This document shows positions 155 to 52,607 of a stretch of 64,000 nucleotides of DNA, one piece after another (positions within the stretch are counted from its first letter, which is position 1; each line of letters begins with the position of its first letter). Below the pieces are notes generated by a model that ran no database searches, was not told where the DNA came from, and saw only the letters and a list, made by a program, of their open reading frames with translations. Location of the stretch: positions 1 through 64,000 of the forward strand of contig PNAA01000036.1 in assembly GCA_003169975.1 (NCBI GenBank), in the 5' to 3' direction. A program made the translations under genes and the position numbers. This stretch comes from Spartobacteria bacterium. GTDB taxonomy: Bacteria > Verrucomicrobiota > Verrucomicrobiia > Chthoniobacterales > UBA10450.

Positions 155-810
155 AAAACGGTTGGCTCTAGACCAGAAGATTCGAGGGATTTCTGATAAG
201 TATTAATAGGTTTTTGAATAAAAAGAAAGGAGATTTGTTGTAACGCCACTCGTACTCCTTGAGATGAAGATCAAAGTTGGCTTGACTCCGTTGAACTTGG
301 CCAGGCGGCGCTTGGTGAAGCTCCAGAAAGCTTCGATGCCGTTGATGTGAGCGCGGCCTTTGGTAAAAGACTTTTGCTTGTTGATGCGCACGTGCTTGTC
401 CTAGCCGACATCGACCAGGCCATCGTAACCGGGCCAGCCATCGGAGCAGACGACGCTCTGCGGGTCGATCCGTCCCCGAATGATGGCCCGCAGGGTATAG
501 GCAGAGCAATCGGTGAATGATCTGGGTATAGACCTCTCCTCGGTCCGAAGTAACATTCATCCACTTCGACCACCCCTTGGGATGGCCGGCGCTGGTTCAT
601 CCGCTGCAAGCAGATGAGCAGCCGGAAGCGCTGGTAAAGAGCGTTCACCGCCTTGCGATTGAGCTTCAGCGACCCGGCCGTTTGTCTCGCCGTCAGATCC
701 AAACAAAAGCACTCCACAACTTTTTTTACTAGATAGTTTGACAACTTGCTCTCTTTGAACATCTTGAATAACTCGTATCATAAATCTTCTGGTCTAGAGC
801 CAACGGTTTT
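155..810. mobile_element. IS1595-type insertion sequence, decayed, with terminal inverted repeats
   Basis: Two inverted copies of a 28-bp end sequence bound this stretch: 155-182 on the left and 783-810 on the right. The inner 22 bp (161-182 against 783-804) match perfectly and there is one mismatch at 160/805. Between them lies a broken transposase gene on the minus strand. The element is only about 650 bp, short for an IS1595-family member, so internal deletion is likely. I see no convincing 8-bp target duplication outside the repeats. It sits just downstream of the res gene, at the outer edge of the defence island. Confidence 0.75.
168..762 (-). pseudogene. Frameshifted IS1595-family transposase remnant
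   Basis: The minus strand reads as a transposase only if several frames are joined. The first frame (762 to about 530) carries a helix-turn-helix-like N-terminus and the block VEVDECYFGPRRG, typical of the IS1595 DDE core. A second frame continues with EVYTQIIH, a third with SDGWPGYDG, and a fourth with RINKQKSFTKGRAHINGIE and FWSFTKRRLAKFNG, the usual C-terminal catalytic region. At least three frame changes are needed, so no functional enzyme can be made from this copy. The family assignment rests on these recognisable blocks. Confidence 0.7.
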
Positions 811-965: not shown

Positions 966-3239
966 TCACGCAACTTCCGCAGCCGATGTAACAACATCGA
1001 AATCGACATGAAGTGTTTCAAAGTGTTTGCGGCCGCAGCGAATCTTCTCAGCTTCGCTGCCGCGCAGCTTCTCGAAATTCTTCGTCCCTTTTGTTTCACG
1101 AACCAGATAAAGCGCGGTGTTGTCGTGGCGCAGAATCGCCCAATCAGGGTTGTAGCTTCCGAGTGGCGTGTCGATTTTAAACCAATCGGGAAGCTTCACG
1201 AAGAGCTTAATGTCTTCCCGCTGATCGAGCTTGGCGGCGAACTCGCGTTCAATCTCAGAATCATAGACGACGGCATCGTAAACCGACTTCTGCACGTCGA
1301 GTCGATTGTTGAGATAGCTGACGATCTCCTCTTCCTCGAAAAGCCTCATACTCCATTCCTCGTCTCCGAGGCGCTCGTATTTGATGCCGTCGATCATCAG
1401 CCGATGGAGCTCGCGGTTTAGGATCGCGGCGATCTCGTCCATAAACTTTTGCGGATTGACGAAGAAGTCTGCGAGTCGCCCGGATTCCTTCAAAATACGG
1501 ACGAGTGTCGAGCGAGTCAGTTCGGTCGCATTTTGCAGGTATGCCACGACATCGGGAATTGGGCCAGCGTACTGGACGATCTCGTCCTTCTCGCGGATTA
1601 CCGTTCCGCCAATTCCTGCTCGCCTTACTTCAGCCTGCGTCTCGCTGTATCGCACCTTGGCTGGTTCGTCTAGAGAGAGCAATTGCTCCTTTTTCCGCAT
1701 GATGAGCGCATAGACGTCATCATCCGCTTGCGTGGCGCCACTCGTGTCCTTGAGCACGCCTTTTTTATCCTGAGCGAAGTAGCCGTTGTGCAGTTGCTCC
1801 AGTGGGAGTGCCGCAACGGGCAACTTCCGATAGCGATCCTGCACGACCAGCTTCCGAAACGCGGCCTCGAACTCGATGGCGAATTTGCCTGGAGTCGGTT
1901 TTCCTTCCTCGTCGTAGGCCCGGTAGTTCGCCACTCTGTCGATGAAAAAGAGGGTGAGCACCTTGAGCGCTTTGTCCCTGACTTGCAGCTCTTTCTCCAA
2001 GTGTTTGCGCACCGTGTTCTCGATCTGCACCCGCCACACATCCTCGCGCATTCCGCCCACTTCCTGCCCGTTGTTGAGCGAGCGGCCATTGGTGAATGCG
2101 ACATGCTCCGCACCCGGAGTCGCGTCCACGTAATCAACGACCCAATTGTCCTGATACGCGGCGCGTTCGCCCGAAAGCAGGTGCAAATCCTCGGAACCCT
2201 TCACCTTGAAATCTTTTTCCTTCACCCCGCCTTTGCCCTGAACGTGGATCGTGAGTTTGGCGAAAGGACGCTTTCCCTTCGGCTCATAGCCGATGCTTTT
2301 CACCTTCACATATGCGCCATTAAGCGCGTCGCCTGCGGTCGCGCTCGCGACCACGATCTGCTTCACCAGACGCAGCTCGTAAGCCCGAATCGGATCGAGT
2401 CGATAAACGAGATTGTAGGTATTCCGGTGCGTTGCCGAGTAGCGCAGCGTGCAGAGCGGATTGAGTGCTTTGATCGCCTCCTGCGCCTTATCCGTGCTGT
2501 CCACACTTTGCGGCTCATCAATGATCACGATGGGCCGCGTCGCTTGCACGAATTCGATGGGCTGCCTGCCCGAGAGCTTGTCGTTCTCCTTGTATATCAC
2601 GTTGCTCCGATTCTCCGCGTCCGTGCCGGTGAAGTTTTTGCGGAAGGCGTCAATGTTGATCACAAGCACTTGAATCGTATTGCTCGTGGCGAACTGCCGC
2701 AGCTTGTTCACCTTCTTGGCGTCGTAGACGAAAGACTCGAATTCGACGTTATTGTAGAGCGCGCGGAAATGCTCCAACGTGATTTCCAGATTCTTCAGGA
2801 CTCCTTCACGGATCGCGACACTCGGAACCACGATAATGAACTTCTTGAACCCATACTTCTGGTTCAGCTCATAGATCGTCCGGAGATAGACGTAAGTCTT
2901 TCCCGTGCCTGTTTCCATTTCCACCGAGAAATGCGGGCACCGGCGCTCAGTGTTTTCACTATTCCAGGTCCAGCCTTCAAGGCTGGAGGAAAGATCGAGA
3001 TCATTGGCCCCTTGCACGCGGCGCAGATTCTCCAGCACCTTGGCATCGCCTATCAGAAGGCGATTACTCACCCCGAGTTCCGTGCGTGCCTGACCGGCAA
3101 AAAGCTCTGTGTCCATCGTCTGGAAAATCACCGAGTAATCTGGTTGCTCGAGTGGCTGCCCATCGAAGAGTTCAACCACGGCGTTCACCGCATCCAGCTG
3201 GTATTGTTGCTTGGGGTCGAATTGAATTCGCATGCGCAA
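966..3239 (-). CDS. res: Type III restriction enzyme, Res subunit
   Basis: ATP-dependent restriction subunit that would translocate or slide on DNA and cleave beside unmodified sites together with Mod. The 757-residue protein has a Walker A block METGTGKTYVYL (about residues 107-118), a DEAD-like motif IIDEPQSVD, motif III SATHRN, and a C-terminal PD-(D/E)XK nuclease with YNPDWAI followed by RETKG. It is shorter than classical Res proteins (about 900-1000 residues), but both ends of the family pattern are present, so I see no truncation. It is the last gene of the minus-strand operon and starts 6 bp after rmuC. The family is secure; activity is not shown. Confidence 0.92.
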   Translation of the reverse strand: MRMRIQFDPKQQYQLDAVNAVVELFDGQPLEQPDYSVIFQTMDTELFAGQARTELGVSNRLLIGDAKVLENLRRVQGANDLDLSSSLEGWTWNSENTERRCPHFSVEMETGTGKTYVYLRTIYELNQKYGFKKFIIVVPSVAIREGVLKNLEITLEHFRALYNNVEFESFVYDAKKVNKLRQFATSNTIQVLVINIDAFRKNFTGTDAENRSNVIYKENDKLSGRQPIEFVQATRPIVIIDEPQSVDSTDKAQEAIKALNPLCTLRYSATHRNTYNLVYRLDPIRAYELRLVKQIVVASATAGDALNGAYVKVKSIGYEPKGKRPFAKLTIHVQGKGGVKEKDFKVKGSEDLHLLSGERAAYQDNWVVDYVDATPGAEHVAFTNGRSLNNGQEVGGMREDVWRVQIENTVRKHLEKELQVRDKALKVLTLFFIDRVANYRAYDEEGKPTPGKFAIEFEAAFRKLVVQDRYRKLPVAALPLEQLHNGYFAQDKKGVLKDTSGATQADDDVYALIMRKKEQLLSLDEPAKVRYSETQAEVRRAGIGGTVIREKDEIVQYAGPIPDVVAYLQNATELTRSTLVRILKESGRLADFFVNPQKFMDEIAAILNRELHRLMIDGIKYERLGDEEWSMRLFEEEEIVSYLNNRLDVQKSVYDAVVYDSEIEREFAAKLDQREDIKLFVKLPDWFKIDTPLGSYNPDWAILRHDNTALYLVRETKGTKNFEKLRGSEAEKIRCGRKHFETLHVDFDVVTSAAEVA

Positions 3240-3245
3240 CGATGA

Positions 3246-4949
3246 CTAAGTCTCGGGAGTGTCACCCGGGAATAGCGGAGCCGCTTCTGGCAGCGTCAAC
3301 GCTCGTGGCGTTGCTTCAATTTGGGACAGAACAGGAATCTCCTCTTGCTCGGTCCCAACGTGAAGCTCCCTAAACCGCCTCGCCGACACCATGACGCGAG
3401 TTTCAAGCGAACCAACAGCCTTGTTGTAGCTTTCCACAGCCTTATGCAACTTCTGGCCGACATCGGAAAGATGATCTGTCATGTCGCTGATGCGCTTATA
3501 CAGTTCCTTGCCGAGTTCCGCGATCTGCTTTGCGTTTTCTGCCAGTCGTTCCTGCCGCCATCCAAAGGCAACTGCTTTGAGCAACGCGATCAGTGTCGTG
3601 GGAGTAGCTAAAATCACTCGTTGCTCAGCACCGAGCTCGATGAGGCTGGGATCTACCTGAAGCGCTGCACTGAAAAAGGTCTCATTCGGCAGGAAAAGGA
3701 ACACGAATTCAGGCGTGGGATCAAATTGCTCCCAATAGGCTTTTTTGCTTAGGGCCGCGATGTGATCTCGAATCAAGCGGGCGTGGTTGGTAAGCTTTAT
3801 CTGGCGGAGGGTCTCATCCGTCTCTTCGATCGCTTCGAGATAGGCAGATAGGGGTGCTTTGGCATCCACCACGATGTTTCTGTTGCCGGGAAGTCGAATG
3901 AGAAGATCGGGACGGAGGCGCCCATCCTCGGTTGTGACGCTGCGCTGTTCAAAAAAATCACAGTGGTCCAGCATTCCCGCCAGCTCCACAACCCGCTTTA
4001 GTTGAATCTCCCCCCAGCGACCTCTGACACGCGGAGTGCCCAGCGCTTGGACGAGATTTCCGGTCGTCTCCTTTAGGCGGGCCTGAGTGTCGATCAAACT
4101 GCGCACTTGCTCGGTTAGACCTTCGTACGCGCCAACGCGGTCTTTCTCGATCTGTTGAATCTTCGCATCGACTTTGTCGAGTGATTCGCGAACCGGCTTT
4201 ACCATATGCTCAATCGCCTGTTGGCGTTTTTCCAGATCGCCTTTGGCTCCCTCTTGATACTTCTCCAAGGTCTCGCGGGCGAGTTCTACGAATGCCTTGT
4301 TGTTGCTCCTCAGTGCTTCTGAGGAGAGGGCTTTGAACGCGTCACTGAGGCTCGCCTGCGCTTCTGCTAACAGTTGGAGTTTTTCTTCCGAAAGCTTGCG
4401 CTCTTTGGCCAAGGTTGTCTCCACTTCAGCGTTTACGACCCGCAGATTGGCGAGGGTTTTCTGCGACGCATCCAATTCCATGAAGGTCGTCGAGAGGCGC
4501 GATTGAATCCCAGGAATTACGGTCGCAGCTTCATCTGCTTTTGCGCGTGCTGCGGCTTCGAGTTGAAGCTTGGCCTGTAGCTCGTCGTATTTCTGCCGCT
4601 CACTAACCGCAGTGGAGGCAAGTTTTTCATTTTGGAGATTTCTCTCGGCAAGGTTTTCCGCGGCGTGCTGGGCCGATTGCTCAGCCGTTAACCGCGCTTC
4701 TCTTTCCTCCTGGAGGTTCGTCTCAGTTTCTCTCCACAATTGCTCGAACCGAGCAACCTGGCCAATGGTATCCTCCAGTCTTTGCGTGCGCTCATGCAAT
4801 GCCGTTTGCGCACTGGATAGGAGTTGCCCGAGCTCTGCGGTAGCAGCGGCCTCCCGCGCTTTACTTTGGCTTCGGCTGAAAAACCAGATACAGATCCCGC
4901 CCACTAACAGTCCTGCCAGCAGGCAAACCAATACGATTGCTAGGTTCAT
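3246..4949 (-). CDS. rmuC: RmuC-family DNA recombination protein inside a restriction operon
   Basis: 567-residue RmuC family protein. Residues about 3-25 form an N-terminal membrane anchor (LAIVLVCLLAGLLVGGICIW), followed by a long coiled coil rich in Ala/Glu/Gln to about residue 230. The conserved RmuC domain then carries RGRWGEIQLKRVVELAGML, RPDLLIRLPGNR and VVDAKAPL, a fold related to nucleases. In E. coli RmuC limits DNA inversions and is not linked to restriction. Here it lies 4 bp downstream of mod and 6 bp upstream of res, so it is co-transcribed with a type III system. A role in handling restricted DNA at the membrane is inference. Confidence 0.9.
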   Translation of the reverse strand: MNLAIVLVCLLAGLLVGGICIWFFSRSQSKAREAAATAELGQLLSSAQTALHERTQRLEDTIGQVARFEQLWRETETNLQEEREARLTAEQSAQHAAENLAERNLQNEKLASTAVSERQKYDELQAKLQLEAAARAKADEAATVIPGIQSRLSTTFMELDASQKTLANLRVVNAEVETTLAKERKLSEEKLQLLAEAQASLSDAFKALSSEALRSNNKAFVELARETLEKYQEGAKGDLEKRQQAIEHMVKPVRESLDKVDAKIQQIEKDRVGAYEGLTEQVRSLIDTQARLKETTGNLVQALGTPRVRGRWGEIQLKRVVELAGMLDHCDFFEQRSVTTEDGRLRPDLLIRLPGNRNIVVDAKAPLSAYLEAIEETDETLRQIKLTNHARLIRDHIAALSKKAYWEQFDPTPEFVFLFLPNETFFSAALQVDPSLIELGAEQRVILATPTTLIALLKAVAFGWRQERLAENAKQIAELGKELYKRISDMTDHLSDVGQKLHKAVESYNKAVGSLETRVMVSARRFRELHVGTEQEEIPVLSQIEATPRALTLPEAAPLFPGDTPET

Positions 4950-4953: not shown

Positions 4954-6993
4954 CTAAACCGTCCGAAAACTCGTCACGCCCTTGGTTTTCATCGTCTGCA
5001 CGGCGTTGGTCTTGAGTTGATCGTTGCCGGCGAAGCCTTCGTCGAGACAGACGACGCGCTCGGGCTTGCGGGCTGCCATCTCCTTGATGACTTCGGACGT
5101 TATTTTCTTTTCCAGGCAGATCAACATCGCCCCCTCGGCAATGCTAAAGACGGTCAGGCCCGCGAGCGTCAGCGTTTCTATCGCAGTGGTCAAGGGAAAG
5201 CCGCTCTTGAGCAGGAGTTCAAAAAGCAGGTCATCCTGAGTGCGGTCCTCGACAATGTGATGGATATGCATTTCGAGCTGCTGCGCCAACGTGGCCTCGT
5301 CGTGCGGGGCGTCGGCGTTCCACGTTTTGAAGTTCGAGCTTTGGAGTTTTACGAATCTGAAGCCGCGATCCGGCTTCGTTTCCTGTTGTAAGGTCACTTG
5401 GTTACCATCTTGCTCGCCCAGCTTTTTGATAACTCGTCGCACCCGTTCTGCACATGCCGCGCTCACAGTTCGCAGTTCTTCAATTTCGGCAGGTTCGGGA
5501 AGCTGAATCATAACGAACCTTCGGCTGCCACCATCTTGCTCATTAGCAGCGAGAACTGCGTGAGCTGTACTTCCTACTCCGGCAAAAAAATCGAGGACGA
5601 GATGTTGATCGACCGCCTTGGTTGCGAGCCCGAGCATTCGCTGAATAAATGCGATTGGTTTCTTTCCGTTCGGGAAAGCCATATCTCCTTCTTTGGATAC
5701 GTTGTTCCAATTGAAGTCGGTCCACAGTGTGCCGGTTTTTCCACGGATATAGACCTTCTCGGCATCTTTGTGTCCAATGTCTTTCAACCATGCGATCTGA
5801 TCTTTTTTCGTTCCTTTGTAATAGACTGTGGTCAACTTGCCTTTGCTCCTTCCGCTGCGGGGCATGTAATCGATACTGAACAATCCGTCGTCGTCTCCTA
5901 ATGCGTGGATTACTCGAGTTCTGATTGAGCTTTGCGCGTTTGTGTCCCGAAATATTGTCTCGAAATGGCGGAAATATGTTTCGGCGATATCTTCCTCCGG
6001 TTTTTTCAGTTCCGAGACAGGAACCATCTTGAACGCGGCGTGTTTGAAGACCTTAATTTCGTTTCCCTCACCGTCCGTCGTCGTAGCTACGAGGCTTCGC
6101 TGACCGAAGTCAGTCAGAGCGCGTGTATATTTCCAACTCTTATTTGCCTCGCGCATTGAGTCGATATGTTCCGTAAGTTCCGTCTCGTCGAATGCTTGAT
6201 TGAGGTCCAAAGCAGTTTCGCTGTCCCGGTTCTTTACATAAACAATAAGGAATTCCACGTTCTTCTTCAGGCGCTTGTCCTCGCCGCCACCGCTGGCGCC
6301 GGCTGACGGTTTAGCTTTGACACAGATGGTATTGACGTAATTCTCCTCACCATAAAGTTCATTCATGAGCGCCCGGAGATTGTGAATCTCTTGATCACCG
6401 ATGCTGATGAAGATAACTCCGTCATCGCGTAAGAGATTGTGGGCAAGGTAGAGGCGGGGATACATCATGTTCAACCACTTCGAGTGGAAGCGGCCGTCGG
6501 CCTCGGTGTTGGTGGAATATTTGCGACCTTCGCTGTCCACCTGCCCGGTGTAGCGCAAATACGTTTCCAGCGATTCGGTGTAATTGTCCGGGTAGATGAA
6601 GTCGTTGCCCGTGTTGTAGGGTGGGTCGATGTAGATCATCTTCACCCGGCCGAGGTAGGATTTCTGGAGGAGCTTGAGCACTTCGAGATTGTCGCCCTCG
6701 ATGATGAGATTCTCTGTCGTGTCCCACGCCACCGACTCCGCCCTGGCCGGCACCAGCGTCGCCATACTCGGCTGTTGGATCGTCTTGAAACAATCCGCCT
6801 TCCCCGGCCAGTTCATCCCGTAGCGTTCCTTGCCGACCTCAACCGACTCACCGAGGGCGAGCTTTAGTCGCTCGAAATCAATCTTCCCGCCCTCCGTGAA
6901 TGCTTCTGGAAATGCCGCGCGCAGCGTTGCCTGCTTATCGGCAGCGATGTCGTGCGAGCGAAGGTCGAATTTTTCGGGAGTCTGCTGTTCCAT
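4954..6993 (-). CDS. mod: Type III adenine DNA methyltransferase, Mod subunit
   Basis: Methylates adenine in the recognition sequence to protect host DNA and supplies target specificity to Res. The 679-residue protein shows the beta-class order: catalytic motif DPPYNTGNDF first (DPPY at residues 123-126), a variable target recognition region in the middle, then the SAM-binding motif LDFFAGVGSTAHAVLAAN. The length matches the Mod family (600-700). It follows the AAA ATPase gene by 47 bp and precedes rmuC by 4 bp. The recognition sequence cannot be read from the protein. Assignment to type III rather than an orphan enzyme rests on the linked res gene. Confidence 0.93.
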   Translation of the reverse strand: MEQQTPEKFDLRSHDIAADKQATLRAAFPEAFTEGGKIDFERLKLALGESVEVGKERYGMNWPGKADCFKTIQQPSMATLVPARAESVAWDTTENLIIEGDNLEVLKLLQKSYLGRVKMIYIDPPYNTGNDFIYPDNYTESLETYLRYTGQVDSEGRKYSTNTEADGRFHSKWLNMMYPRLYLAHNLLRDDGVIFISIGDQEIHNLRALMNELYGEENYVNTICVKAKPSAGASGGGEDKRLKKNVEFLIVYVKNRDSETALDLNQAFDETELTEHIDSMREANKSWKYTRALTDFGQRSLVATTTDGEGNEIKVFKHAAFKMVPVSELKKPEEDIAETYFRHFETIFRDTNAQSSIRTRVIHALGDDDGLFSIDYMPRSGRSKGKLTTVYYKGTKKDQIAWLKDIGHKDAEKVYIRGKTGTLWTDFNWNNVSKEGDMAFPNGKKPIAFIQRMLGLATKAVDQHLVLDFFAGVGSTAHAVLAANEQDGGSRRFVMIQLPEPAEIEELRTVSAACAERVRRVIKKLGEQDGNQVTLQQETKPDRGFRFVKLQSSNFKTWNADAPHDEATLAQQLEMHIHHIVEDRTQDDLLFELLLKSGFPLTTAIETLTLAGLTVFSIAEGAMLICLEKKITSEVIKEMAARKPERVVCLDEGFAGNDQLKTNAVQTMKTKGVTSFRTV

Positions 6994-7040: not shown

Positions 7041-9338
7041 CTAAGGAGCGGGAGCATCGGCACCGATTGCAACTAGCATTTCATCATAGTGCCTGGCGTC
7101 CTCCGTCCTCATGAGTTCTAGAATCTCCGCCATTACCTGCGGGGCTTCTGCGAGCAAAGTTGGATCGTGCCCTGCCTCATCAACCTTGTCGCCGTGTGAA
7201 AAGGTGTGCAGGAAGCGGAGAATTCTAACCTTTTTGTGCTCGTCGAAGGCAACTCGTTCGAGCTTCGGCATGAGCTCGCCAGCGACACTCGGGAAGCGGA
7301 ACGCGAGGAAAGCTTCGAGCAGTCTTCGCGCAAGATTCGGAAGCGGGTAGCATTCCGCCAGGGCCGTCGTGCCGCTCGGGCGGTTGGCCTCCCCGTGAAC
7401 CCGGTGGAACAGGTAGTGATACTCTGACTCGAATTCCTCCAGGAGGTGGTCGAGCGGACAAATGCTCGCTCTCCGTCTCGTCCCGTCGCCAGTGGCAATG
7501 AGCATGAAGAAACGGGCTGGGCGCAACTTCACGTCCTCTTTCTTTTGATGGGGCATGTGGTGAAACCAGTTTTTTACCTGCCGGAAGAACGCGAAATTGT
7601 GTGTGAGCACGAACAGTTGCCCGGCGCTCTTCGTGCGGGACTTCATGTGGCCGAAGGCGCTGAAAAGAGCGTTGGCATCAAGACTCGATACGGGGTCATC
7701 GATCACCACGACGCTCTTCGATAGTTCAAAGGCGCGGTCCTGCAGCGATTTCAAGAAATAGAGGAACGCGATCGCGCTCTTTTCGCCTTCACTGAGATTC
7801 GACGCCGGGATGCCATTCCGCGTGATCGTGTAGCCGGTGTCTCGCACGTCGAGCTTGATGTCGTCACGGCCAAGAAAACTGCGAAGCTCCTCGTTCAATT
7901 CGTCAGCAGGTTTTCGATGCTCAACGAGAGTTTTCTCCAGATCGGAAATCTTCGTGCGCAATTCGCCGACTTTCGTTGTGAGTTTGGCAGCGCGCTCTTT
8001 CGCAGATTGAATCGAAGTTGTGTGCGTGGAGAACTCCGTCATCGACTCGGCAACGAATCCGTCCTCGAGTTTCTTTCGAGCAGCTTGCACGGCCATCCCG
8101 AAATCAGCGGTGCGAGCGTTGTGTTGGGAGATGAGTTTGCCCCAGGTTTTCTCGTGAGCAGCAGCAGCCGAGTCGGCGGCGGCGTTCTTGCCGAGGAGAA
8201 ACTGGGCAAGAGCCATTGCCCCAAATGGCTTCGTTCGCTTCTCGGACAACGCCCCCGCGAGCGCGCTAAGGTAGTCGGCCACGTCGCCAACGGCTTGCTG
8301 GAGTTGGTCGCGGGCTTCGGTGTAGGCCGCGCTGAATTGCTCGTACAGTTCAGCAGAGATCGGAAACGTGGAGGCGCGCAACGCCGTTGCGTCTGCCTCA
8401 ATCGTCGCCCGCTTTGCATCCACGACTCCGAGCAAGCGCTCGTATTCGTCGTTAAAGTGGGCTTCCAGTTCTGCGATCCGCTCGGCTGAAAGTGGACCTC
8501 TGCAAAACTCGCAAAGCTCATCCGCTCCAGCTTCCCCGTGTAGAGCGAGGCCCTCTTTGACCCAAGTTGCAATGTCCTCGTTGTCCTTTAGCCGAGCAAT
8601 CACCTGAGAAACAACCGTCTTCGACAGTAAGCTTTCCGTTTCGGCGGTTACGTCTGTCAACTTTGGAATTCGCAACGCTTGGATCGAAAGTTCGCTCTTC
8701 GGTCGTTGGTCTTTCTCCAATTTCAATCCGGCTTTGATTTCTTCCGATAGAGCCTTGCTTTCGGCGTCCCCCGAGATCGCCATATCGTCCGACCTCGTTC
8801 GGAAGTTGGACTTGTTATAGTTGTTGTACGGCCCGCCGTCGGAAGCGGTGAGTAGCTCTTTGATCGTACGAGCCTGCTGAACACAAAACTCGTCCAATCT
8901 TGCTTCTGCTGACCCTTGAGCAGTTTGGGCCTTACCAAGATCCGTGCCCATTGTGGCAGCCTCGCTCTTGAGTGCTTCAAGCTGCCTTCGCTTTTCTACG
9001 CTTTCCTCACCGAAGTAATAGACCAACCCCAGTGGCGTCGCCGCAGACGACACACTCAAGTCGACCCGGCTCCTGTCGAAGACGCGAACTTTCGAAAGAC
9101 CGCAGGCACTATCGAAATCTCGACCGCTCACAGCCGTGCCATTGACCGTCAACTCGATGGTGCCTTCGGTCACATTGGCGCGACGTTCGAGATGCGCGAA
9201 GAGGTTTGCCAGCGTCGTTTTGCCCGAGCCATTCCAGCCGTAGATGAGGTTGAAATGGCCGAAGTCATGCAAATCCGCAGGCCACGAAAAGTCCTGAAAT
9301 ATCCGATGATTGATACGGTTGAAGCGCGTTATCTGCAT
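7041..9338 (-). CDS. AAA_13 ATPase resembling RloC/PrrC anticodon nucleases
   Basis: 765-residue ABC/SMC-like ATPase. Visible elements in order: Walker A GWNGSGKTT (34-42), a coiled-coil region interrupted by a CEFC motif (276-279) that could be a zinc hook, more coiled coil, signature LSEGEK (515-520), Walker B VVVIDDPVSSLD (543-554) and an H-loop LTHN. The C-terminal domain has NLARRLLEAF and ILRFLHTFSHGD, giving R671-x3-E675 and then H711 or H715. PrrC uses an Arg-x3-Glu...His triad with similar spacing to cut tRNA, and RloC adds a zinc hook. Position within a restriction operon fits such a guard protein. The nuclease function is inference; the ATPase family is firm. Confidence 0.8.
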   Translation of the reverse strand: MQITRFNRINHRIFQDFSWPADLHDFGHFNLIYGWNGSGKTTLANLFAHLERRANVTEGTIELTVNGTAVSGRDFDSACGLSKVRVFDRSRVDLSVSSAATPLGLVYYFGEESVEKRRQLEALKSEAATMGTDLGKAQTAQGSAEARLDEFCVQQARTIKELLTASDGGPYNNYNKSNFRTRSDDMAISGDAESKALSEEIKAGLKLEKDQRPKSELSIQALRIPKLTDVTAETESLLSKTVVSQVIARLKDNEDIATWVKEGLALHGEAGADELCEFCRGPLSAERIAELEAHFNDEYERLLGVVDAKRATIEADATALRASTFPISAELYEQFSAAYTEARDQLQQAVGDVADYLSALAGALSEKRTKPFGAMALAQFLLGKNAAADSAAAAHEKTWGKLISQHNARTADFGMAVQAARKKLEDGFVAESMTEFSTHTTSIQSAKERAAKLTTKVGELRTKISDLEKTLVEHRKPADELNEELRSFLGRDDIKLDVRDTGYTITRNGIPASNLSEGEKSAIAFLYFLKSLQDRAFELSKSVVVIDDPVSSLDANALFSAFGHMKSRTKSAGQLFVLTHNFAFFRQVKNWFHHMPHQKKEDVKLRPARFFMLIATGDGTRRRASICPLDHLLEEFESEYHYLFHRVHGEANRPSGTTALAECYPLPNLARRLLEAFLAFRFPSVAGELMPKLERVAFDEHKKVRILRFLHTFSHGDKVDEAGHDPTLLAEAPQVMAEILELMRTEDARHYDEMLVAIGADAPAP

Positions 9339-9345: not shown

Positions 9346-12243
9346 TCACGTCAGCCGCCAGCGGATCTCGAAGAGGGTTTTCTGACTGAGGTGCTGGCTG
9401 AGTTTCTTCTCAACCTCGTCGATGAGCGAATCTTTCCGCTTCTCGATGTCGCGGGCGGCTTCTTCGTATTCCTTCCACGCCTCGTCGCGGTTGGTTTCGA
9501 GATTCCGCTTCTCGCGTTCGAGTTTGAGTTTGAGCGGGAGGTTTGGGGCGAGCCGAGCTTCTCGTTTGATGAGCCTGATCGCGTCTTCCATATCCCTCAG
9601 CTTTTCCTTCAAGGTAGCGCGTCGGTCGTCGCCCCATCGGTCGAGCTTGTCCAGCTCCGCATCGAAGAACTCGTTGTTGCGGAGATCGAGGCCAGAAACT
9701 ACGGCATCTTTTTCCTGAGCGATTGCCGCGGACAAGACTTCCGCAAACGATGACGGGAGCGCCGCAGTTATCGGTGCCTCTTCGACTTCAAGGGAGAAGC
9801 AGCGACGGCATTGTTCAGCGGTCAATGCTGCACCGGCGTCGGTGCAGCCGGCGAAGAGAATGTGATCCTGCGACTCAAACGCGGAGATCGTGAGGAGTTC
9901 GCAGGTGAGCCAGCCTTCCTTTCCGGCCAATTCATCGAGAATGGAAATTCGTTTTCCGGCGCCAGTGTAGCGGAAGGTTAGCGTCTTCTGGCTTAGGTGG
10001 ATGTCGCGGCACCGGGCGATGACCTTTTGTGCGAGCGGATGGCCGACGCGGTAAAGGTTCGCTTCCTCGACGCTTTGGCCCGCGCCACCGGAACGATAGG
10101 GACCGGGATGGATGTGCTCTTCGGGAAAGGGATTTTGGCGCAGCACGAAGCCGTGCCGGTCTTCCTCGAAATCCGCGTAGGGTGCAAGGAAGTACCGCGT
10201 GAGCTGCCAGAGCCAGGACTCGTAGCGGTCGAGGTATTCACTGCTTTCCTTGAGACTCACGCGCAGCTTCTCGTGAACCTCTTCGTCGAAATTTTCTAGG
10301 AGCTTCTGCCGAGTTTGGCGCATCCGGTCGTCGATCTGCTCCTCCATGTCATGCTGGAGGGCGTCGAACTCGAATTCGATTTGCTCCTCGGTGCGGCATT
10401 TTTGGTAGATGTCCACGATTCGCTTCTCAAAATCGACGCCAGACTCGATGGCGCCGAGCACTTCGTCGCTCGCGCCAAAGACTCCGCTGAAGAGTTTGAA
10501 CTTTTGATCGAGGAGTTGATAGACCCGCTGATCAGCGGCGTTCTTTTTGTTGAGGAAGTTGACCACGACCACATCGTATTTCTGCCCATAGCGGTGACAG
10601 CGCCCGATTCGCTGCTCAATGCGCTGTGGATTCCAAGGGAGATCGTAGTTCACGACAAGCGAGCAGAATTGGAGATTGATGCCTTCGGCAGCTGCTTCCG
10701 TTGCGATCATGATGACGGCTTCATCGCGGAAGTAATCGACCAAAGCGGCTCGTTTGTCGGCGCTGGGTGATCCGCTTACACGGTCGGTGCCGGCGTGCTT
10801 CGCGAGCCACTGTTCAAAGATGGCCTTTGATTGCGGGTCGGTGTTGGTGCCGTTGAAGAGCACGAGCTTTCCAGCGAATGCGGTTTCTTCAAGAATTTCG
10901 CGCAGATACTCCTGTGTGCGCCGACTCTCGGTAAAGATAATGGCTTTCTCGCCGCTCCCGCGCTTCCGCGCCTCGTCGAATCCACGCTTCAGCGCGGTCA
11001 GAAGCACTTCGCCTTTGGAATTCTTGACAATGGATTTGGCGAGCACGCTGAATTCCTTGAGCGTCTCAACCTCCTGTTTCATCTCGCCGATTTCTTCTGC
11101 AGTGCGGACCGTTGAGGACGCAGCGTCGCCAGCTGCGCTGTCGCCTTCATCGTCTTCTTTCCACTCGTCCTCTACTTCTTCGAGCGCTTCGAAATCTGAG
11201 ACCACTTCATCGGGCGGCGCTTGCACGGCCTCCGCCTGCTGGGCCGACTCTGCGAGCCGGGAAGAAAGTCCCTGTAGCGTACTCGAAATGGCGTAGGTGG
11301 AGGAGGCGAGCAGCTTGCGCAGGATCAGCGTCATCAGCTTCCGTTGGCTCGAAGGCAGGGCATACAGATTCGGGCGTTGGAGATAGTCTGAAACGAGGTC
11401 GTAAAGCCGCTGCTCTGCCTCGGACGGGAAGAACTCCTGAGTGATCGGAATGCGATTCGTGTATTTGACGTATTCCAGCACCTGTCGGCGAAGCGTTCGC
11501 TGGCAGACCGGGCGCAGCCGTTCCTTGAGATCAACGAATTGCTCATCGCCCGTCAGGCGGGAGAATTGCGCTTTGAAGCTCTTAAGATCGCCGAAGGCGT
11601 ATTCGTCGATGATGCTGACAAGGCCGAAGAGTTCGAGCAGCGAGTTTTGCAGCGGCGTGGCGGTGAGGAGCACCTTAGGTGCGTGGGCAATCGCGGCTTT
11701 GATCGCATTCGCAATTTTGTTCGTCGGCTTATAGACGTTCCGCAGCCGATGCGCCTCATCGACGATTACAAGATCCCAGGCGATCTGCGCAACATAGGCC
11801 TCTTTGCCGCGAGCGAATTGGTAGGAACATATTACGATCTCAGGCTGGGAGAACGGGTTGAGATTGCGCCCCTTGATTGCCTCGTTGAAGGAGCGCGCTT
11901 CGAGGATAATCGACGGTAGGAAGAATTTGTCAGACAGCTCCTGACTCCATTGCTTGCGCAGGTTCGCGGGCACGATGACGAGAAGTTTTCGCCGACGTTC
12001 TGCCCATTTTTGCGAGAGCAGAATCCCGGCTTCGATCGTTTTGCCCAAGCCGACCTCATCCGCGAGCAGTGCGCCTTTAGACAGGGGTGAACGGAAGGCG
12101 AAGAGTGCCGCATCGATCTGATGAGGATTCAGGTCAACCTGCGCATTGGCTAATGAAGCGGCCAACTTTCCGACACTATCGGACGGACAGCGCTTCGTTA
12201 GTTCATGTGCGAAGTATTTCGCATGGTAGGCGGTAATCGGCAT
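9346..12243 (-). CDS. SNF2-type DEAD/DEAH helicase, first gene of the type III operon
   Basis: 965-residue superfamily 2 helicase of the SNF2/RapA type. It contains ALLADEVGLGKTIEAG (motif I, about residues 58-73), LLVIVPANLRKQW (Ia), DLVIVDEAHRLRN (II), LLTATPLQNS (III), and the C-terminal lobe with EGINLQFCSLVVNYDLPW and RIEQRIGRCHRYGQ (VI). A long C-terminal Glu/Arg-rich coiled coil follows. It leads the minus-strand operon and ends 7 bp before the AAA ATPase gene. SNF2 helicases occur in DISARM and other defence loci, but DrmA, DrmB and DrmC are absent here. The likely role is a DNA-translocating sensor for the type III complex, which is inference. Confidence 0.88.
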   Translation of the reverse strand: MPITAYHAKYFAHELTKRCPSDSVGKLAASLANAQVDLNPHQIDAALFAFRSPLSKGALLADEVGLGKTIEAGILLSQKWAERRRKLLVIVPANLRKQWSQELSDKFFLPSIILEARSFNEAIKGRNLNPFSQPEIVICSYQFARGKEAYVAQIAWDLVIVDEAHRLRNVYKPTNKIANAIKAAIAHAPKVLLTATPLQNSLLELFGLVSIIDEYAFGDLKSFKAQFSRLTGDEQFVDLKERLRPVCQRTLRRQVLEYVKYTNRIPITQEFFPSEAEQRLYDLVSDYLQRPNLYALPSSQRKLMTLILRKLLASSTYAISSTLQGLSSRLAESAQQAEAVQAPPDEVVSDFEALEEVEDEWKEDDEGDSAAGDAASSTVRTAEEIGEMKQEVETLKEFSVLAKSIVKNSKGEVLLTALKRGFDEARKRGSGEKAIIFTESRRTQEYLREILEETAFAGKLVLFNGTNTDPQSKAIFEQWLAKHAGTDRVSGSPSADKRAALVDYFRDEAVIMIATEAAAEGINLQFCSLVVNYDLPWNPQRIEQRIGRCHRYGQKYDVVVVNFLNKKNAADQRVYQLLDQKFKLFSGVFGASDEVLGAIESGVDFEKRIVDIYQKCRTEEQIEFEFDALQHDMEEQIDDRMRQTRQKLLENFDEEVHEKLRVSLKESSEYLDRYESWLWQLTRYFLAPYADFEEDRHGFVLRQNPFPEEHIHPGPYRSGGAGQSVEEANLYRVGHPLAQKVIARCRDIHLSQKTLTFRYTGAGKRISILDELAGKEGWLTCELLTISAFESQDHILFAGCTDAGAALTAEQCRRCFSLEVEEAPITAALPSSFAEVLSAAIAQEKDAVVSGLDLRNNEFFDAELDKLDRWGDDRRATLKEKLRDMEDAIRLIKREARLAPNLPLKLKLEREKRNLETNRDEAWKEYEEAARDIEKRKDSLIDEVEKKLSQHLSQKTLFEIRWRLT

Positions 12244-12762
12244 TTATTGGGGTTGCAGGTTAAGCCAAAGACGCTGTCGTTTTTATTCAAATAATTCAGA
12301 AAGGGCCACCGGAAACTCATCGCGCTCCGAGCTAACGAGCGCCAAACGGGCGAAGGTGCGTGGTGTTTTGCGTGTTCGCGCCGAAGCGAATTTCAACTCT
12401 TGCTCCCATCGCGCGCAAGAAGGCATCGGCCGCGATTTTACTCGAGCCGACGCCCTCGACTGTACTGCTACCGAGTCTTAGTTCGATCAACCAACCGGTA
12501 TTTTTGGCCGGCTTGCGGCGGCGGCGGGAGCGGCTCTCCCCGCACCACCGTTCGTTCCGTCCCAGTATTGCCACCCCGGGGGCCCACAATTCCATATTGG
12601 CCGGACGCGGGTGCTTTCTGCCCCGGACTTAAATTCTTGTTCGACATCGATTTATCACATCCCGTCTAATTTGCTTGAAAACCTATTTGTAGTGGTTCAG
12701 TATCGACGGATGCACCGGATGCTGTGTTGAATAGAAACTGGCCTTGAAATCGCTCGAAACTG
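12244..12762. other. Divergent intergenic region, no supported gene
   Basis: This stretch separates the SNF2 operon (leftward) from the toxin-antitoxin operon (rightward) and must hold the start signals of both. Short open frames on either strand (for example 12332-12595 minus and 12360-12632 plus) mirror each other, contain many Arg/Ser/Pro codons and resemble no family I know. The only clear signal is the promoter-operator at its right end. Confidence 0.5.
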
Positions 12763-12791
12763 TTGACAAAAATAGTATCAATTGATACTAT
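12763..12791 (+). promoter_or_regulatory. Promoter overlapped by a 20-bp perfect palindromic operator
   Basis: A consensus -35 TTGACA (12763-12768) is followed, after a 17-bp spacer, by TACTAT (12786-12791) as the -10. The stretch 12772-12791, atagtatcaattgatactat, is a perfect palindrome covering the spacer and the -10. A repressor bound there would block RNA polymerase. The downstream HTH antitoxin is the obvious candidate, giving autoregulation as in other toxin-antitoxin operons. The toxin start codon lies 31 bp further on. Confidence 0.8.
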
Positions 12792-12821
12792 CAATACGGT
12801 GGTCCGGATGTTTGTCAACAC

Positions 12822-13169
12822 GTGCAAACCGAAAATCCTATTCCGGAGGCGTGGAGCCGGCCCGTCGCCCGAATCCTCCGGGAAGGCGATTCCGGCAAGA
12901 TTGAGTGGACAAAGCAGGCGTTCCTAGATTGGCGTGCGGCAACCCTTTCGCAGTTCAGATACGAAGCATATGAGGCAATAGCCGCGTGCTTGGAAAACGC
13001 CGGTCCGGTCGGCTTAAAAGTTTGTTTGCCCGAAGATGGCGAGACTTATGCTTTCTTTTTCCCCTACGATGGGCGAATTCTTTACGCCAAGATTTGCCTG
13101 CGGCCCTGCAAAATTCGGATTAAAATTGTCTCGACACACAGCCCCCGTAAAGGCGATCGATTATCGTAA
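12822..13169 (+). CDS. Putative toxin of a toxin-antitoxin-chaperone operon
   Basis: 115-residue basic protein starting at GTG; upstream ATGs are out of frame. The second half (YAFFFPYDGRILYAKI, then IRIKIVSTHSPRKGD) reads like the beta-sheet core of small RelE/MqsR-type RNase toxins, but I cannot assign a family with certainty. It is the first gene after the palindromic promoter and is followed by an HTH antitoxin gene and a SecB-like gene. This is the toxin-antitoxin-chaperone order known from Mycobacterium HigB-HigA-SecB. mRNA cleavage by this protein is inference from context. Confidence 0.6.
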   Translation: MQTENPIPEAWSRPVARILREGDSGKIEWTKQAFLDWRAATLSQFRYEAYEAIAACLENAGPVGLKVCLPEDGETYAFFFPYDGRILYAKICLRPCKIRIKIVSTHSPRKGDRLS

Positions 13170-13170
13170 A

Positions 13171-13182
13171 GTATCAATTGAT
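13171..13182. promoter_or_regulatory. Second operator half-site at the antitoxin start
   Basis: The sequence gtatcaattgat repeats the core of the promoter palindrome (atcaattgat is itself a perfect 10-bp palindrome). It lies between the toxin stop (13167-13169) and the antitoxin start, overlapping the TTG/ATG start codons. The same HTH protein could bind here and tune internal transcription or translation. Confidence 0.6.
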
Positions 13183-13636
13183 GAAAAATAAATGCCAGAT
13201 TGGCCAGATTGAAGAAACCGATTTCGAAGTGGCAATACCCAATGCTGAACGGACCGCAATTGTTGAGAGAATAACGATTCGCGTGCCTGTAGAACGCGAC
13301 CCGGTGACCGGCGAGGAAGTGCTTACCTCAGAAGCGCTCGATTTGATTGAGGACACGCAGGCAAGACATATGGGCTTGCTTTTGCCAGGGGAAATCAGAG
13401 CTCTACGCAAGTCGTTAGGCCTGACACAACGCGGATTCGGCGATTTGCTGCAAGTCGGCGAAAAGACTGCAACCCGATGGGAAACAGGTCGAGGACGACC
13501 GTCGCGCAGTTTGAATGTGCTGCTGTGCGCCTTACGAGACGGGCAACTTCCGACTTGGTACTTGGAGCGGTTGCAAAAGTCCACAGAGAGTCCTGAAGCG
13601 GCTGCGGATCATCAGGATCTTGCACTGGCGGCTTAA
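13178..13636 (+). CDS. MqsA/HigA-type HTH antitoxin
   Basis: 152-residue protein (TTG start at 13178, or 151 residues from the ATG at 13181, which I prefer). The N-terminal half (about 1-65) is acidic and lacks the zinc-binding CxxC pairs of true MqsA. The C-terminal half is an Xre/YgiT-type helix-turn-helix: LLPGEIRALRKSLGLTQRGF followed by GEKTATRWETGRGRPS. A short Ala/Glu-rich tail after the HTH (about 130-152) could be the chaperone-addiction segment seen in TAC antitoxins. It abuts the SecB-like gene with no gap. It probably neutralises the toxin and represses the operon through the repeated atcaattgat sites. Confidence 0.8.
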   Translation: MMKNKCQIGQIEETDFEVAIPNAERTAIVERITIRVPVERDPVTGEEVLTSEALDLIEDTQARHMGLLLPGEIRALRKSLGLTQRGFGDLLQVGEKTATRWETGRGRPSRSLNVLLCALRDGQLPTWYLERLQKSTESPEAAADHQDLALAA

Positions 13637-14113
13637 ATGAGGCGTGCCCAGATTTCGTTGACGAATTATTTCGTCTCCGAGTTGACGTATACGGCGAATC
13701 GGGAATTCGATGTTACAAAGCCGTCGATCATTGCAATCGCTGACTACGAGGTGACGCCTCGGGCGGAAGCGCAAACCGAAAATCGCAGGAAGTGGGAAGT
13801 CGGTTTGCGTGTCGCGCTGACAGCAACGCCAGAGAAGAATTTCCCTTGTAGTTTCATGTTGGATTTAGTGGGCTCTATCGAAATCGACGATACTCTGCGG
13901 GAGGAATACATCGATCGCTTCGTAAACATCAACGGGGTCGCGTTGGTATTTGGTGCGGCGCGCGAAATCGTACGCGCTCTTACGTCAGCGGGTCCTTCGA
14001 AGCCAGTATTGCTCCCGAGCGTGACGTTTTGGGAGCCAAAGGAACCGCCCGTTTCTACGGGTGTGTCGACTCTCACGCCGACCGCAGGCGGTCCAACGCT
14101 TTCCAATCCGTAG
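13637..14113 (+). CDS. SecB-like chaperone of a TAC system
   Basis: 158-residue SecB-superfamily protein. The C-terminal half aligns with the SecB pattern: a helix INGVALVFGAAREIVRALT followed by the loop KPVLLPSVTFWEP (compare LLLPPINF in SecB). The middle strand ENRRKWEVGLRVAL also fits the fold. It starts directly after the antitoxin stop codon (TAA at 13634-13636, ATG at 13637), so the two are translationally coupled. In TAC systems a dedicated SecB-like protein stabilises an aggregation-prone antitoxin, so its loss frees the toxin. General export function is less likely because it is in a mobile island. Confidence 0.75.
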   Translation: MRRAQISLTNYFVSELTYTANREFDVTKPSIIAIADYEVTPRAEAQTENRRKWEVGLRVALTATPEKNFPCSFMLDLVGSIEIDDTLREEYIDRFVNINGVALVFGAAREIVRALTSAGPSKPVLLPSVTFWEPKEPPVSTGVSTLTPTAGGPTLSNP

Positions 14114-14254
14114 GGCAAGCAACGCTACCTTGCCACGCGCCGGCTCGACTCCTTCTCTCCGACGGCGAACGGCTGCGAATCTCGACGGACTTGTTCCTAT
14201 TTGTGTTCCTATGTAGGCAATTGTTGGATCATAAACAATTGCAAATCAAACATA

Positions 14255-14304
14255 TGGAGGCGAGGGGAGTTGAACCCCTGTCGCCGCGTTGGAACACAAA
14301 AGTC
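14255..14304 (-). other. 3'-end remnant of tmRNA (ssrA), likely attachment site
   Basis: Read on the minus strand, this segment ends with a T-arm (stem CAGGGG/CCCCTC around TTCAACT) and an acceptor strand CGCCTCCA, preceded by GTTCCAACGCGGCGA. This is the usual 3' end of tmRNA. The rest of a tmRNA is absent because the integrase gene begins within about 30 bp. Integrases that use ssrA leave such a copy of its 3' end, so I read it as an att remnant. Confidence 0.65.
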
Positions 14305-14334
14305 GTTGGAGGCTAGGAGCCGGGCGTTTCGCCC

Positions 14335-15537
14335 TCACTCTCCTTCCAGCTTCGGTATCTGAGCGACAGCAGCCCGAAGCGGCTCGATCTCGTGATGCGT
14401 GTATTTTTGGTGAATCGCCCGTGTCGTGTGGCCTGTCAGTTTCATTCGTAATTCTTCCGAGACACCGGCATTTGCCATCGCCGACGAAAAGCTGTGGCGG
14501 AGGCTGTGGAACGTCAGGGATCGCACGGTGCGACCCTCTCTAGTTGCGGTGCGAGTGACCGATCCCTCGATTTTGGCACGTGCCATAATTCTCGCGAACG
14601 CGCGAGACAGGCCGGTTCTGCCTCCAGTCTCAGAACCTGCGAGTTTCGGAAAGACAAACGCCTTGCCGGCATCGGGCGCCGAAAGCGTGAGGAGATACGT
14701 TTCAAGCTCCGGGTGAATCGGCACAACCACAGCAGCGCGCGACTTGCGACTTTTTCGTGTCTTGCGCGGCACATACGACAGCAGCCGCGCCGCAACGTCG
14801 ATCGACTCCCACCTCATGTTGGCCACGTCCTGCAAACGTGCGCCCGTGTAGAACGCAAACAGAATCGCACCGCGCCAGTCCTCGCCGGCCTCGAATATCA
14901 GGCGGCCACGTTTCTTCGCGACCGCCGCGTCCATCAAAGCGCGGACGTGCTTTACGGAGAATACATCTTTTTCCACTTTATCGTCGTCCGGGAGCGCCTC
15001 GATCGCTGTGCACGGGTTCGTGGGAATGTAGCCCTGACGCTTCGCCGCGTTAAAAGCGCCGCCAACGATCTTGATATCAAGGTTCACAGTTGCGGGCGCG
15101 AGTCCCTTTGCTGCCCTCATCTTGCGGAAAGCGAGAATGTCTTTCGGCGTGATCGCCGCGATGTTCAGCCTCGCGCGACCGGCGAGGAATCCGACGAACT
15201 CCGCCGCAATCTGCCGATAGCGCTCTCCAGTTCGTGCGGCTTTGGAAGCCGTCTTCCCCTCTATCCAAACTTTAAACCACTGTTCGACGGTAAAATACTG
15301 GAGCGCTTCGCCAGAAGTGCGTTCGACAACTTCACCCACCAATTCTCGTGCTCTCGCTTCAGTCAACGTTCCATGCCGCGCCAGGTTTTCGGCGCGATCG
15401 AGCGCAAGACAAGTCTCCAGAGCCTTCCTCCGATCCCTCTGCTTTGTCGATTTCTTCAGGCGCCTCCCGTCCGCAGACGTGAAGCAGCAAATCCAAAACG
15501 GGCTTCGGCCCCGAACATCCTTGACCAACGAGGGCAT
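14335..15537 (-). CDS. int: Tyrosine recombinase (integrase) of the left island
   Basis: 400-residue phage-type integrase. An N-terminal SAM-like core-binding domain (about 65-170, with FTVEQWFKVWIEGKT and ITPKDILAFRKMR) precedes the catalytic domain. The catalytic domain shows the first Arg in FYTGARLQDVANMRW, HSLRHSFSSAMANAG (H-x-x-R), and LTGHTTRAIHQKYTHH (His and the nucleophile Tyr). All R-H-R-H-Y residues are present, so it may be active. Its start codon faces a tRNA 3' remnant and its stop faces a tmRNA 3' remnant. It presumably mobilises the defence island on its left. Confidence 0.93.
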   Translation of the reverse strand: MPSLVKDVRGRSPFWICCFTSADGRRLKKSTKQRDRRKALETCLALDRAENLARHGTLTEARARELVGEVVERTSGEALQYFTVEQWFKVWIEGKTASKAARTGERYRQIAAEFVGFLAGRARLNIAAITPKDILAFRKMRAAKGLAPATVNLDIKIVGGAFNAAKRQGYIPTNPCTAIEALPDDDKVEKDVFSVKHVRALMDAAVAKKRGRLIFEAGEDWRGAILFAFYTGARLQDVANMRWESIDVAARLLSYVPRKTRKSRKSRAAVVVPIHPELETYLLTLSAPDAGKAFVFPKLAGSETGGRTGLSRAFARIMARAKIEGSVTRTATREGRTVRSLTFHSLRHSFSSAMANAGVSEELRMKLTGHTTRAIHQKYTHHEIEPLRAAVAQIPKLEGE

Positions 15538-15587
15538 AGTCAGAACAATAGTCAGAACATTCGAGGATGTCCAGCGTTGTTCTGACT
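15538..15587. promoter_or_regulatory. Candidate integrase arm-binding repeats
   Basis: The motif AGTCAGAACA(A) occurs at 15538-15548 and 15550-15559 in direct order and inverted at 15577-15587. The cluster lies directly upstream of the integrase start and beside the tRNA-like remnant at 15638-15665. This is where arm-type recombinase sites and the integrase promoter are expected. Confidence 0.5.
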
Positions 15588-15637
15588 CGTCTTTCTACGA
15601 GGGAAAAAAGGTTACATTCCAGGGCCGGAATGTAAGT

Positions 15638-15665
15638 CAAGGTTCGAGTCCTTGCGAGGCAGCCA
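15638..15665 (+). other. tRNA 3'-end remnant, probable island attachment site
   Basis: The plus strand carries a 5-bp T-stem with loop (CAAGG TTCGAGT CCTTG, 15638-15654), an acceptor strand CGAGGCA, a discriminator G and CCA. No D-arm or anticodon arm precedes it. Instead a perfect 9-bp hairpin lies at 15612-15635. I read this as the duplicated 3' end of a tRNA gene left by integration, marking the right border of the island. The full tRNA would be outside the window. Confidence 0.55.
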
Positions 15666-15856
15666 ATGCTTTCGGGGATGAGGCCCCGAAATTGCTCTAA
15701 CGAGATGCTCCCCCCGACAAAGAAGCCATGTCATACCTCCATCCAAGCTCGCTCTGGTTCGCAATGCAAACCTACCCACACGTCGGAAGCCTTACGTCAC
15801 GGTTACGTTCCAGCAATGTAATAACTTTGGACTCGATGCACAAGTTTTTCGAGCGA

Positions 15857-17539: not shown

Positions 17540-17548
17540 GCTCGCCTA

Positions 17549-18037
17549 TCAAGGCGCCTCTGCTTCGCGCCTGCGCTTGGCCCGAAAGAAACTTTGCAGC
17601 AGCTCCGCGCATTCGTCGCGCAGAACGCCAGCCGTGACGTCGCATTGGTGATTGAGCGACGGGTTCTGGAGTAGATTCAGTAGTCCGCCCGCCGCGCCGC
17701 CACGGGGGTCGGCGCAGCCGAAGATCACCCGGCGCATCCGCACGTGGACAAGCGCACCGGCACACATGGGGCACGGCTCCTTGGTCACAAAGAGATCGCA
17801 ATCCGTTAGGCGCCAATCGCCGAGCGCCGCTTCCGCCTGGGTCAGCGCCAGCATCTCCGCATGGGCCGTTGCATCTTTCAATAGCTCGACCTGGTTGAAG
17901 GCGCGCGCGATGATTTTTCCCTCCCGCGCCACCACCGCACCAATCGGCACTTCCTCCGCTTCGTAGGCTCGCGCCGCCATCCGGAGCGCCTCGCTCATGA
18001 AATAGGCATCGCTCTGCAGGTCGATGATCGTTTCCAT
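17549..18037 (-). CDS. tadA: tRNA adenosine(34) deaminase
   Basis: 162-residue zinc deaminase that converts A34 to inosine in tRNA-Arg(ACG). The catalytic HAE motif (ATAHAEMLAL) and zinc ligands in PCPMCAGALV are present, as is the N-terminal EVPIGAVV strand. The length is normal for TadA. It converges on the esterase gene with a 9-bp gap and diverges from the SYLF-domain gene. A CGTTAGGC word lies inside the gene at 17804. Guanine or cytosine deaminases share the fold, but the FGCADPRGGAAGGLLNLL segment favours TadA. Confidence 0.93.
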   Translation of the reverse strand: METIIDLQSDAYFMSEALRMAARAYEAEEVPIGAVVAREGKIIARAFNQVELLKDATAHAEMLALTQAEAALGDWRLTDCDLFVTKEPCPMCAGALVHVRMRRVIFGCADPRGGAAGGLLNLLQNPSLNHQCDVTAGVLRDECAELLQSFFRAKRRREAEAP

Positions 18038-18197
18038 AATGGACCTGTCTTATTCGCTTGAAAATGAGGCCTCTGCCGCTAAAGAATTCCGGGTGGTTAA
18101 AAAAAAATCACTCGATCCGGCCGTAAAGGCCACTCTTCTTAAAAAACTGGCCGACAAACAATACGTCCACCCTTGGACGGGGTTGCGAAATAGTTCT

Positions 18198-18848: not shown

Positions 18849-18920
18849 GGCAAAATCCACGTCGCACCCCGCGGCGAATTTCGCTTTACAGCGCTCGCCC
18901 GTTTGCGGCAGGGTCGCGGC

Positions 18921-19436: not shown

Positions 19437-19499
19437 CGAATCGCCGGATTGATCGTTGCGCGTTGGTTGAAGCCGCCCCAAGCTGGCGCACCTTGCGTG

Positions 19500-49737: not shown

Positions 49738-49811
49738 CATTCGGAAGCCCGGCCCCGCCAGGCTGCTTTTCCCTCGACTTCATTTCCAAACCCGCTAGAA
49801 CTGCGCCCGGA

Positions 49812-52598: not shown

Positions 52599-52607
52599 AA
52601 GGAACCT

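Follow-up and report, generated by a model that had tools for sequence, protein, structure and literature searches.

Gene content and layout of the locus

The window, which is the whole stretch of 64,000 nucleotides that was analysed, contains a five-gene operon on the minus strand in the order SNF2, rloC-like, Mod, RmuC and Res, with gaps of 7, 47, 4 and 6 bases between successive genes. The second gene, here called rloC-like, encodes a protein with a Rad50-like ABC ATPase, a coiled coil with a CXXC motif and a predicted C-terminal HEPN-type domain, and the plus-strand reading of 7041-9338 is interrupted by stops. Type III genes lie around it, as the first-pass annotation had described. The features of the operon are listed below, with conservation given for 108 full-length homologues of the rloC-like protein:

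9346..12243, minus strand: SNF2-type helicase, first gene of the operon, motifs kept
7041..9338, minus strand: rloC-like gene, 765 aa, ATG start, exact open reading frame bounds
9213..9239, minus strand: Walker A, GWNGSGKTT, residues 34-42 (G39 and K40 in 108/108)
8502..8513, minus strand: CEFC, a zinc-hook-like CXXC, residues 276-279 (both Cys in 108/108)
7782..7796, minus strand: ABC signature, LSEGE, residues 515-519
7677..7709, minus strand: Walker B and D-loop, VVIDDPVSSLD, residues 544-554
7599-7601, minus strand: H580, the switch histidine
7068..7448, minus strand: C-terminal helical domain, HEPN-like according to the model, residues 631-757
7314..7328, minus strand: R671-x3-E675 (RRLLE), proposed catalytic Arg and Glu (R in 108/108, E in 96/108)
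7194..7199, minus strand: S714-H715, proposed catalytic His (H in 108/108, S in 107/108)
4954..6993, minus strand: type III methyltransferase Mod (MTase_III, E 5.2e-169), DPPY and FxGxG kept
3246..4949, minus strand: RmuC-family gene between Mod and Res (E 2.4e-103)
966..3239, minus strand: type III Res, 757 aa, PD-(D/E)XK end kept

The Pfam family AAA_13 covers residues 10-741 of the rloC-like protein (E 6e-143) and the PADLOC PDC-S06 model PDLC04894 covers residues 1-755 (E 1.7e-255). NCBIfam shows no family above its cut-offs for this protein, and phmmer against the PDB sequences gave chance matches only (best E 0.12). In the predicted structure, CEFC falls in the loop that joins helices 254-269 and 285-294, the position expected of a hook. 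There are 39 residues between E675 and H715, and S714 stands directly before H715.

With respect to a type III restriction-modification (R-M) system, the operon has a Mod with DPPY and lacks a complete helicase-nuclease Res. Compared with four relatives, Res has a single gap of about 230 aa, clean and in frame, in which EGWDNPNV and GRGLR (helicase motifs V-VI) are gone, and no second Res copy was found in the genome. Either restriction has been lost here or the assembly is wrong, and the gap therefore weakens the case for RloC guarding a working type III enzyme. The SNF2 gene is nearest to DISARM DrmD_b with 692.4 bits, under the NCBIfam equivalog cut-off of 950, and DISARM was set aside on this account.

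Just upstream of the operon, the plus strand of 12822-14113 contains a 115-aa gene without a Pfam match, an HTH/MqsA-like antitoxin gene and a gene for a SecB-like protein (a weak match, below the cut-off); this set looks like a toxin-antitoxin-chaperone module. A phage-type integrase (14335-15537, minus strand) adjoins the island. At the contig edge, a 163-aa open reading frame (271-762, minus strand), without a match in Pfam, is presumably a transposase piece by its appearance. Since an integrase and a putative transposase piece are present, the region may be a mobile island. A type I R-M locus (HsdR, HsdS and HsdM) occupies 49569-60495 on the plus strand, with a reverse transcriptase gene, a DUF5131 gene and a gene for a 387-aa protein without assignment between HsdS and HsdM. 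The contig carries another SNF2-type III operon at a distance of about 83 kb (L212, C58:85001-105000, at 10285-19998). There the stretch from SNF2 to Mod holds an SMC/AAA gene and one with a SAP domain, and Mod is followed by genes of the PD-(D/E)XK and DUF1016 types.

Conservation and predicted structure of the rloC-like protein

A total of 160 loci (80 genome, 80 viral) were fetched using a 14-row alignment. A blastp match was found in 139 of them, and the cut-offs used retained 108 full-length homologues and left out 31 partial or divergent matches, besides the 21 loci without a match. R671, H715, C276 and C279 are kept in all 108 homologues and S714 in 107, while E675 is kept in 96 and replaced by Asp in the remaining 12 (L031, L036, L037, L058, L061, L070, L080, L089, L093, L095, L112 and L129). 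The residues that the first-pass annotation had reported in the AAA_13 protein, CEFC, R671-x3-E675 and H715, are thus present as stated, and the catalytic three, whose variation among close homologues would have told against its reading, are constant except for this change of E to D. H711, which it had offered as an alternative histidine, was ruled out: position 711 is N in 62 homologues, H in only 29, Q in 10 and D in seven. Because this position varies, H715 is the relevant histidine. The window protein has R708-x6-H715, a candidate for the HEPN R-x4-6-H motif; among 70 genome rows, position 708 holds R in 35 and K in 33.

Among the dropped matches, the 17 divergent proteins checked all show R-x3-E-x36-52-SH in their last 250 residues. 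The pattern alone was rejected as evidence, since R-x3-E-x36-52-H arises in 4158 of 5000 shuffles (83%) of the rloC-like protein and the SH version in 648 of 5000. The observation is judged real because the motifs are conserved among homologues, and not because of the pattern in a single sequence. Among the 76 aligned homologues, identity with the window protein is 24-44%; their sources are numerous bacterial phyla, plus two contigs labelled as archaeal. Several homologues (L097, L098, L099, L101 and others), with 40-45% identity, are on contigs classed as viral in IMG/VR, and R and H are kept in all 38 full-length homologues from such contigs. The gene is found in two of 98 related genomes, its own included, and the second copy is a 232-aa remnant.

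The full-length model, built with 77 sequences, has a mean pLDDT of 89.6, and in VIA its head is matched by those of Rad50, cohesin and SMC (Z 15-17, rmsd 3.8-13). Residues 598-765 folded alone give a pLDDT of 91.2 and a pTM of 0.84. The top eleven VIA rows for this C-terminal domain (Z 7.6-8.9, rmsd 3.0-4.0, 106-114 residues aligned, in a range below about 13 where Z may reflect an arrangement common among helical bundles) are HEPN toxins or members of the HI0074/nucleotidyltransferase-partner group, which we take to be HEPN. The next rows are two aminoglycoside nucleotidyltransferases (7.2 and 7.1) and alpha-catenin (5.8). Foldseek of the same model against the PDB gave no match at E <= 0.001: the best E is 0.36, and the first HEPN row, 2hsb, has an E of 0.92 and a probability of 0.60. 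The family profile against the PDB gave only ATPase and coiled-coil matches, with no RloC or PrrC among the best 60 rows. The models are therefore suggestive of a HEPN fold, a reading that is not final for a helical bundle, and the fold expected from the first-pass annotation, that of the PrrC and RloC nuclease domains, agrees with the top eleven VIA rows. The extracts of PMC3710099 assign the RNase domains of RloC and PrrC to the HEPN superfamily.

The PADLOC PrrC model finds homologues in 10 of 387 genomes of the phylum, and the C-termini of these ten show R-x3-E within a helix and SH further on. When the profile of the rloC-like family was compared with that of the ten PrrC-model matches, R-x3-E fell on R-x3-E and SH on SH, with a probability of 42% and an E of 2.6e-4. 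With the columns of the PrrC profile shuffled, 20 comparisons stayed at probabilities of 0.08-8.0 and E values of 0.0043-0.61. Taken alone, the probability of 42% is a modest indication.

Linkage to R-M genes and the SNF2-Mod-Res layout

The pairing of the rloC-like gene with a type III operon, presented as new in the first-pass annotation, is not new, because linkage of RloC genes to R-M of type I or III was reported in 2008: eight of 73, with one type III-linked gene mentioned, in the extracts of PMC2610378. In our set, five of 79 genome loci (L025, L026, L050, L077 and L088) have the RloC gene in the same predicted operon as a type III-like Mod, Res or both, and its place in type III operons varies: before Mod, after Res or before SNF2. 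L207, from a genome of the same class, repeats the gene order SNF2-RloC-Mod-Res, its Res being full-length and an HNH-SAVED gene coming next, and L215 and L246 show AAA_13-type genes after Res. The closest tree relatives, L017 and L019, have HsdM and HsdR as neighbours in type I operons (Pfam), loci of the kind at which rlo genes were first found according to the extracts of PMC2610378. L074 was rejected as type I-linked, and a phosphoesterase gene and an SbcC-like gene are found there instead; L009 has no Mod or Res at its locus.

Whether type III-linked RloC forms a lineage of its own was tested on a quick tree without bootstrap, from which the type III-linked L088 was dropped as not full-length, and no such lineage was found. 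The eight rows with the type III label require seven changes, against a mean of 7.8 after shuffling (117 of 500 shuffles as low), and without the long row L215r seven rows require seven changes, against a mean of 6.8 (500 of 500 as low). Since positions vary, the closest relatives are of type I and the type III label is not clustered, RloC genes seem to move among R-M types.

At E <= 1e-120 the SNF2 gene is matched in 27 of the 387 genomes from the phylum, and at E <= 1e-100 in 42 plasmid records. A type III-like Mod lies within seven genes of SNF2 in 28 of the 34 loci examined, the window excluded; at the other six anchors, several of them at contig ends, Mod was not seen. Another gene of at least 100 aa stands between SNF2 and Mod in 18 of the 28 readable loci, and many of these genes are of abortive-infection type. 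This is a raw count, composed of 17 loci by a home-made gene caller and L229 by annotation; in L229 the caller overlooked AIPR and VapC, and in L230 it counted an IS256 transposase as a gene. By the caller, the slot is filled in 14 of the 17 loci with a Mod reading below 750 aa (three cut) and in three of the 11 with a long one. The Pfam names given to genes in the SNF2-Mod and Mod-Res intervals include AAA_13, AAA_15, AAA_21 with DUF4276, SLFN AlbA_2, DUF2130, Abi_2, GmrSD, Fic, DUF1016/YhcG, DUF6119, HTH with an IrrE peptidase, and SAP; record annotation adds AIPR, VapC, Abi and DUF262. At L225 and L226, where Mod was not seen, the genes behind SNF2 are DUF5131 and one for a Fic-like/Schlafen protein. 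In PADLOC, the cores tested fall into type III methyltransferase and restriction enzyme families of several lineages, with one cargo gene assigned to AbiD and one to AriA.

These loci allow a tentative reading, to which we give appreciable but less than even weight: SNF2, Mod and Res in fixed order would form a modular defence chassis with unrelated abortive-infection effectors exchanged in slot 1, between SNF2 and Mod, and slot 2, between Mod and Res, and the core would fire the effector upon failure of restriction. The effectors would be RloC, AbiD-type Abi_2, AIPR with VapC, AriA-like ATPases, AAA_21 with DUF4276, GmrSD, Fic, Schlafen and DUF1016 nucleases. No description of the layout was found in the literature searched, in which subscription papers and preprints are thinly covered and which includes PMC12839542, PMC3710099 and PMC12707154 in extract. 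It is the swap slot that merits further study; the RloC member itself is ordinary. Should SNF2 prove to be shared by many different suicide effectors, a single core combined with several of them could help to show how abortive infection is set off by R-M operons. To our knowledge, PrrC is among the few cases in which this triggering has been worked out in detail.

Proposed activity and comparison with known systems

RloC proteins are bacterial suicide enzymes that cut tRNA upon DNA breakage. The family is defined, in the extracts of PMC2610378, by R-x3-E-x36-52-H, often with a Ser before the His, by a CXXC and by a length of 658-897 aa; changes of R692, E696 or H737 abolish RloC activity and the hook mutant C291G is more active. 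The A. baylyi RloC cuts tRNA-Glu and tRNA-Gln and is activated by double-strand breaks also in R-M-deficient mutants (PMC3874168, extracts). The rloC-like protein shows the published features: an ABC ATPase split by a coiled coil, CXXC at the tip, the R-E-SH spacing and 765 aa. Judging from its sequence and model, it is very probably an anticodon nuclease of the RloC family. The RloC/PrrC-type nuclease proposed in the first-pass annotation is supported by the motif conservation, the HEPN-like model and the register of the PrrC profile. The gene is most likely an ordinary member, with good support for the family and the likely activity, that adds one genome to a known family in which 108 sequences show the fixed residues.

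By analogy with published RloC work, from which DNA-end switching, zinc regulation and wobble-base excision are carried over, two subunits would join via the zinc-hook cysteines at the coiled-coil tip, and the Rad50-like heads would bind DNA ends and ATP and restrain the C-terminal HEPN RNase. Broken or phage-degraded DNA would be the on-switch, upon which R671, E675 and H715 would cut host tRNA at the anticodon loop, so that translation and with it the infection would stop. In this cell, the nuclease would probably back up the type III system as a second line of defence.

PrrC is kept silent by its R-M partner. The first-pass annotation extended this to a nuclease guarding the type III system; such a guard would be silenced by the type III complex and released when a phage inhibitor disables it. 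The nuclease family named in that annotation stands, and the guard, an extrapolation from PrrC, is unproven because RloC responds to DNA breaks even in R-M mutants (PMC3874168, extracts). The place of the gene between SNF2 and Mod within the operon, the same place in L207 and the recurrent R-M linkage of RloC-like genes speak for such a guard. We nevertheless consider it unlikely: in the extracts of PMC3874168, R-M neither silences the A. baylyi RloC nor mediates its activation by breaks; RloC genes occupy other places in type III operons and mostly occur without type III genes in the operon, which argues against an obligate complex; the type III label is scattered on the tree; and the Res of the window lacks helicase motifs. 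By analogy, the mode of action would be like that of RloC, and there is no sign of PrrC-type gating by an R-M complex.

A protein of the same family and fold with another RNA target, whether mRNA, rRNA or another tRNA site, is rather improbable: HEPN RNases vary in target (PMC3710099, extracts), target residues cannot be read from sequence and the likeness to characterised RloC is one of features and not of identity, but the full R-E-SH set and its spacing match both RloC and PrrC. Just as improbable is a decaying passenger, without a present role in an operon that has lost restriction. The in-frame deletion in Res and the rarity of the gene among kin, where the other copy is a remnant, are in its favour; against it, rloC reads through without interruption and has all its motifs, those of SNF2 and Mod are also present, and the deletion might stem from faulty assembly. 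A DNA repair ATPase of the Rad50/SbcC kind that lacks nuclease activity would agree with the head, the coiled coil and the nearby RmuC, but is very improbable indeed, as the polar residues of the C-terminal domain are among the best conserved and Rad50 and SbcC lack this domain of RloC (PMC2610378, extracts).

Compared with known systems, PrrC of E. coli EcoprrI shares the ABC ATPase and the C-terminal R-x3-E and SH motifs in register, but it has 341-416 aa without the coiled-coil insert, whereas the rloC-like protein has 765 aa with a coiled coil and CXXC; PrrC is embedded in a type I hsd operon and the neighbours here are SNF2, Mod, RmuC and Res. RloC of Geobacillus kaustophilus and Acinetobacter baylyi shares the split Rad50-like ATPase, CXXC, R-x3-E-x36-52-H with the preceding Ser and the size, a likeness judged by published features and not by direct sequence comparison. 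RloC genes are sometimes at type I or III R-M loci (PMC2610378, extracts), and here the gene is inside a SNF2-Mod-RmuC-Res operon. The full-length match to PDC-S06 (PDLC04894) makes the protein an already catalogued phage-defence candidate in PADLOC, whose entry gives no mechanism. DISARM with DrmD shares the SNF2 gene close to DrmD_b, but no DrmA, DrmB or DrmC is among the five operon genes. Interchangeable backup effectors are published for BREX, and BREX and BREX-related loci share with the operon the backup effectors inside a methylase-helicase core; the BREX core is based on PglZ/DUF499 (PMC12839542, extracts, for these BREX features), whereas the core here is a type III Mod and Res with a SNF2 gene.
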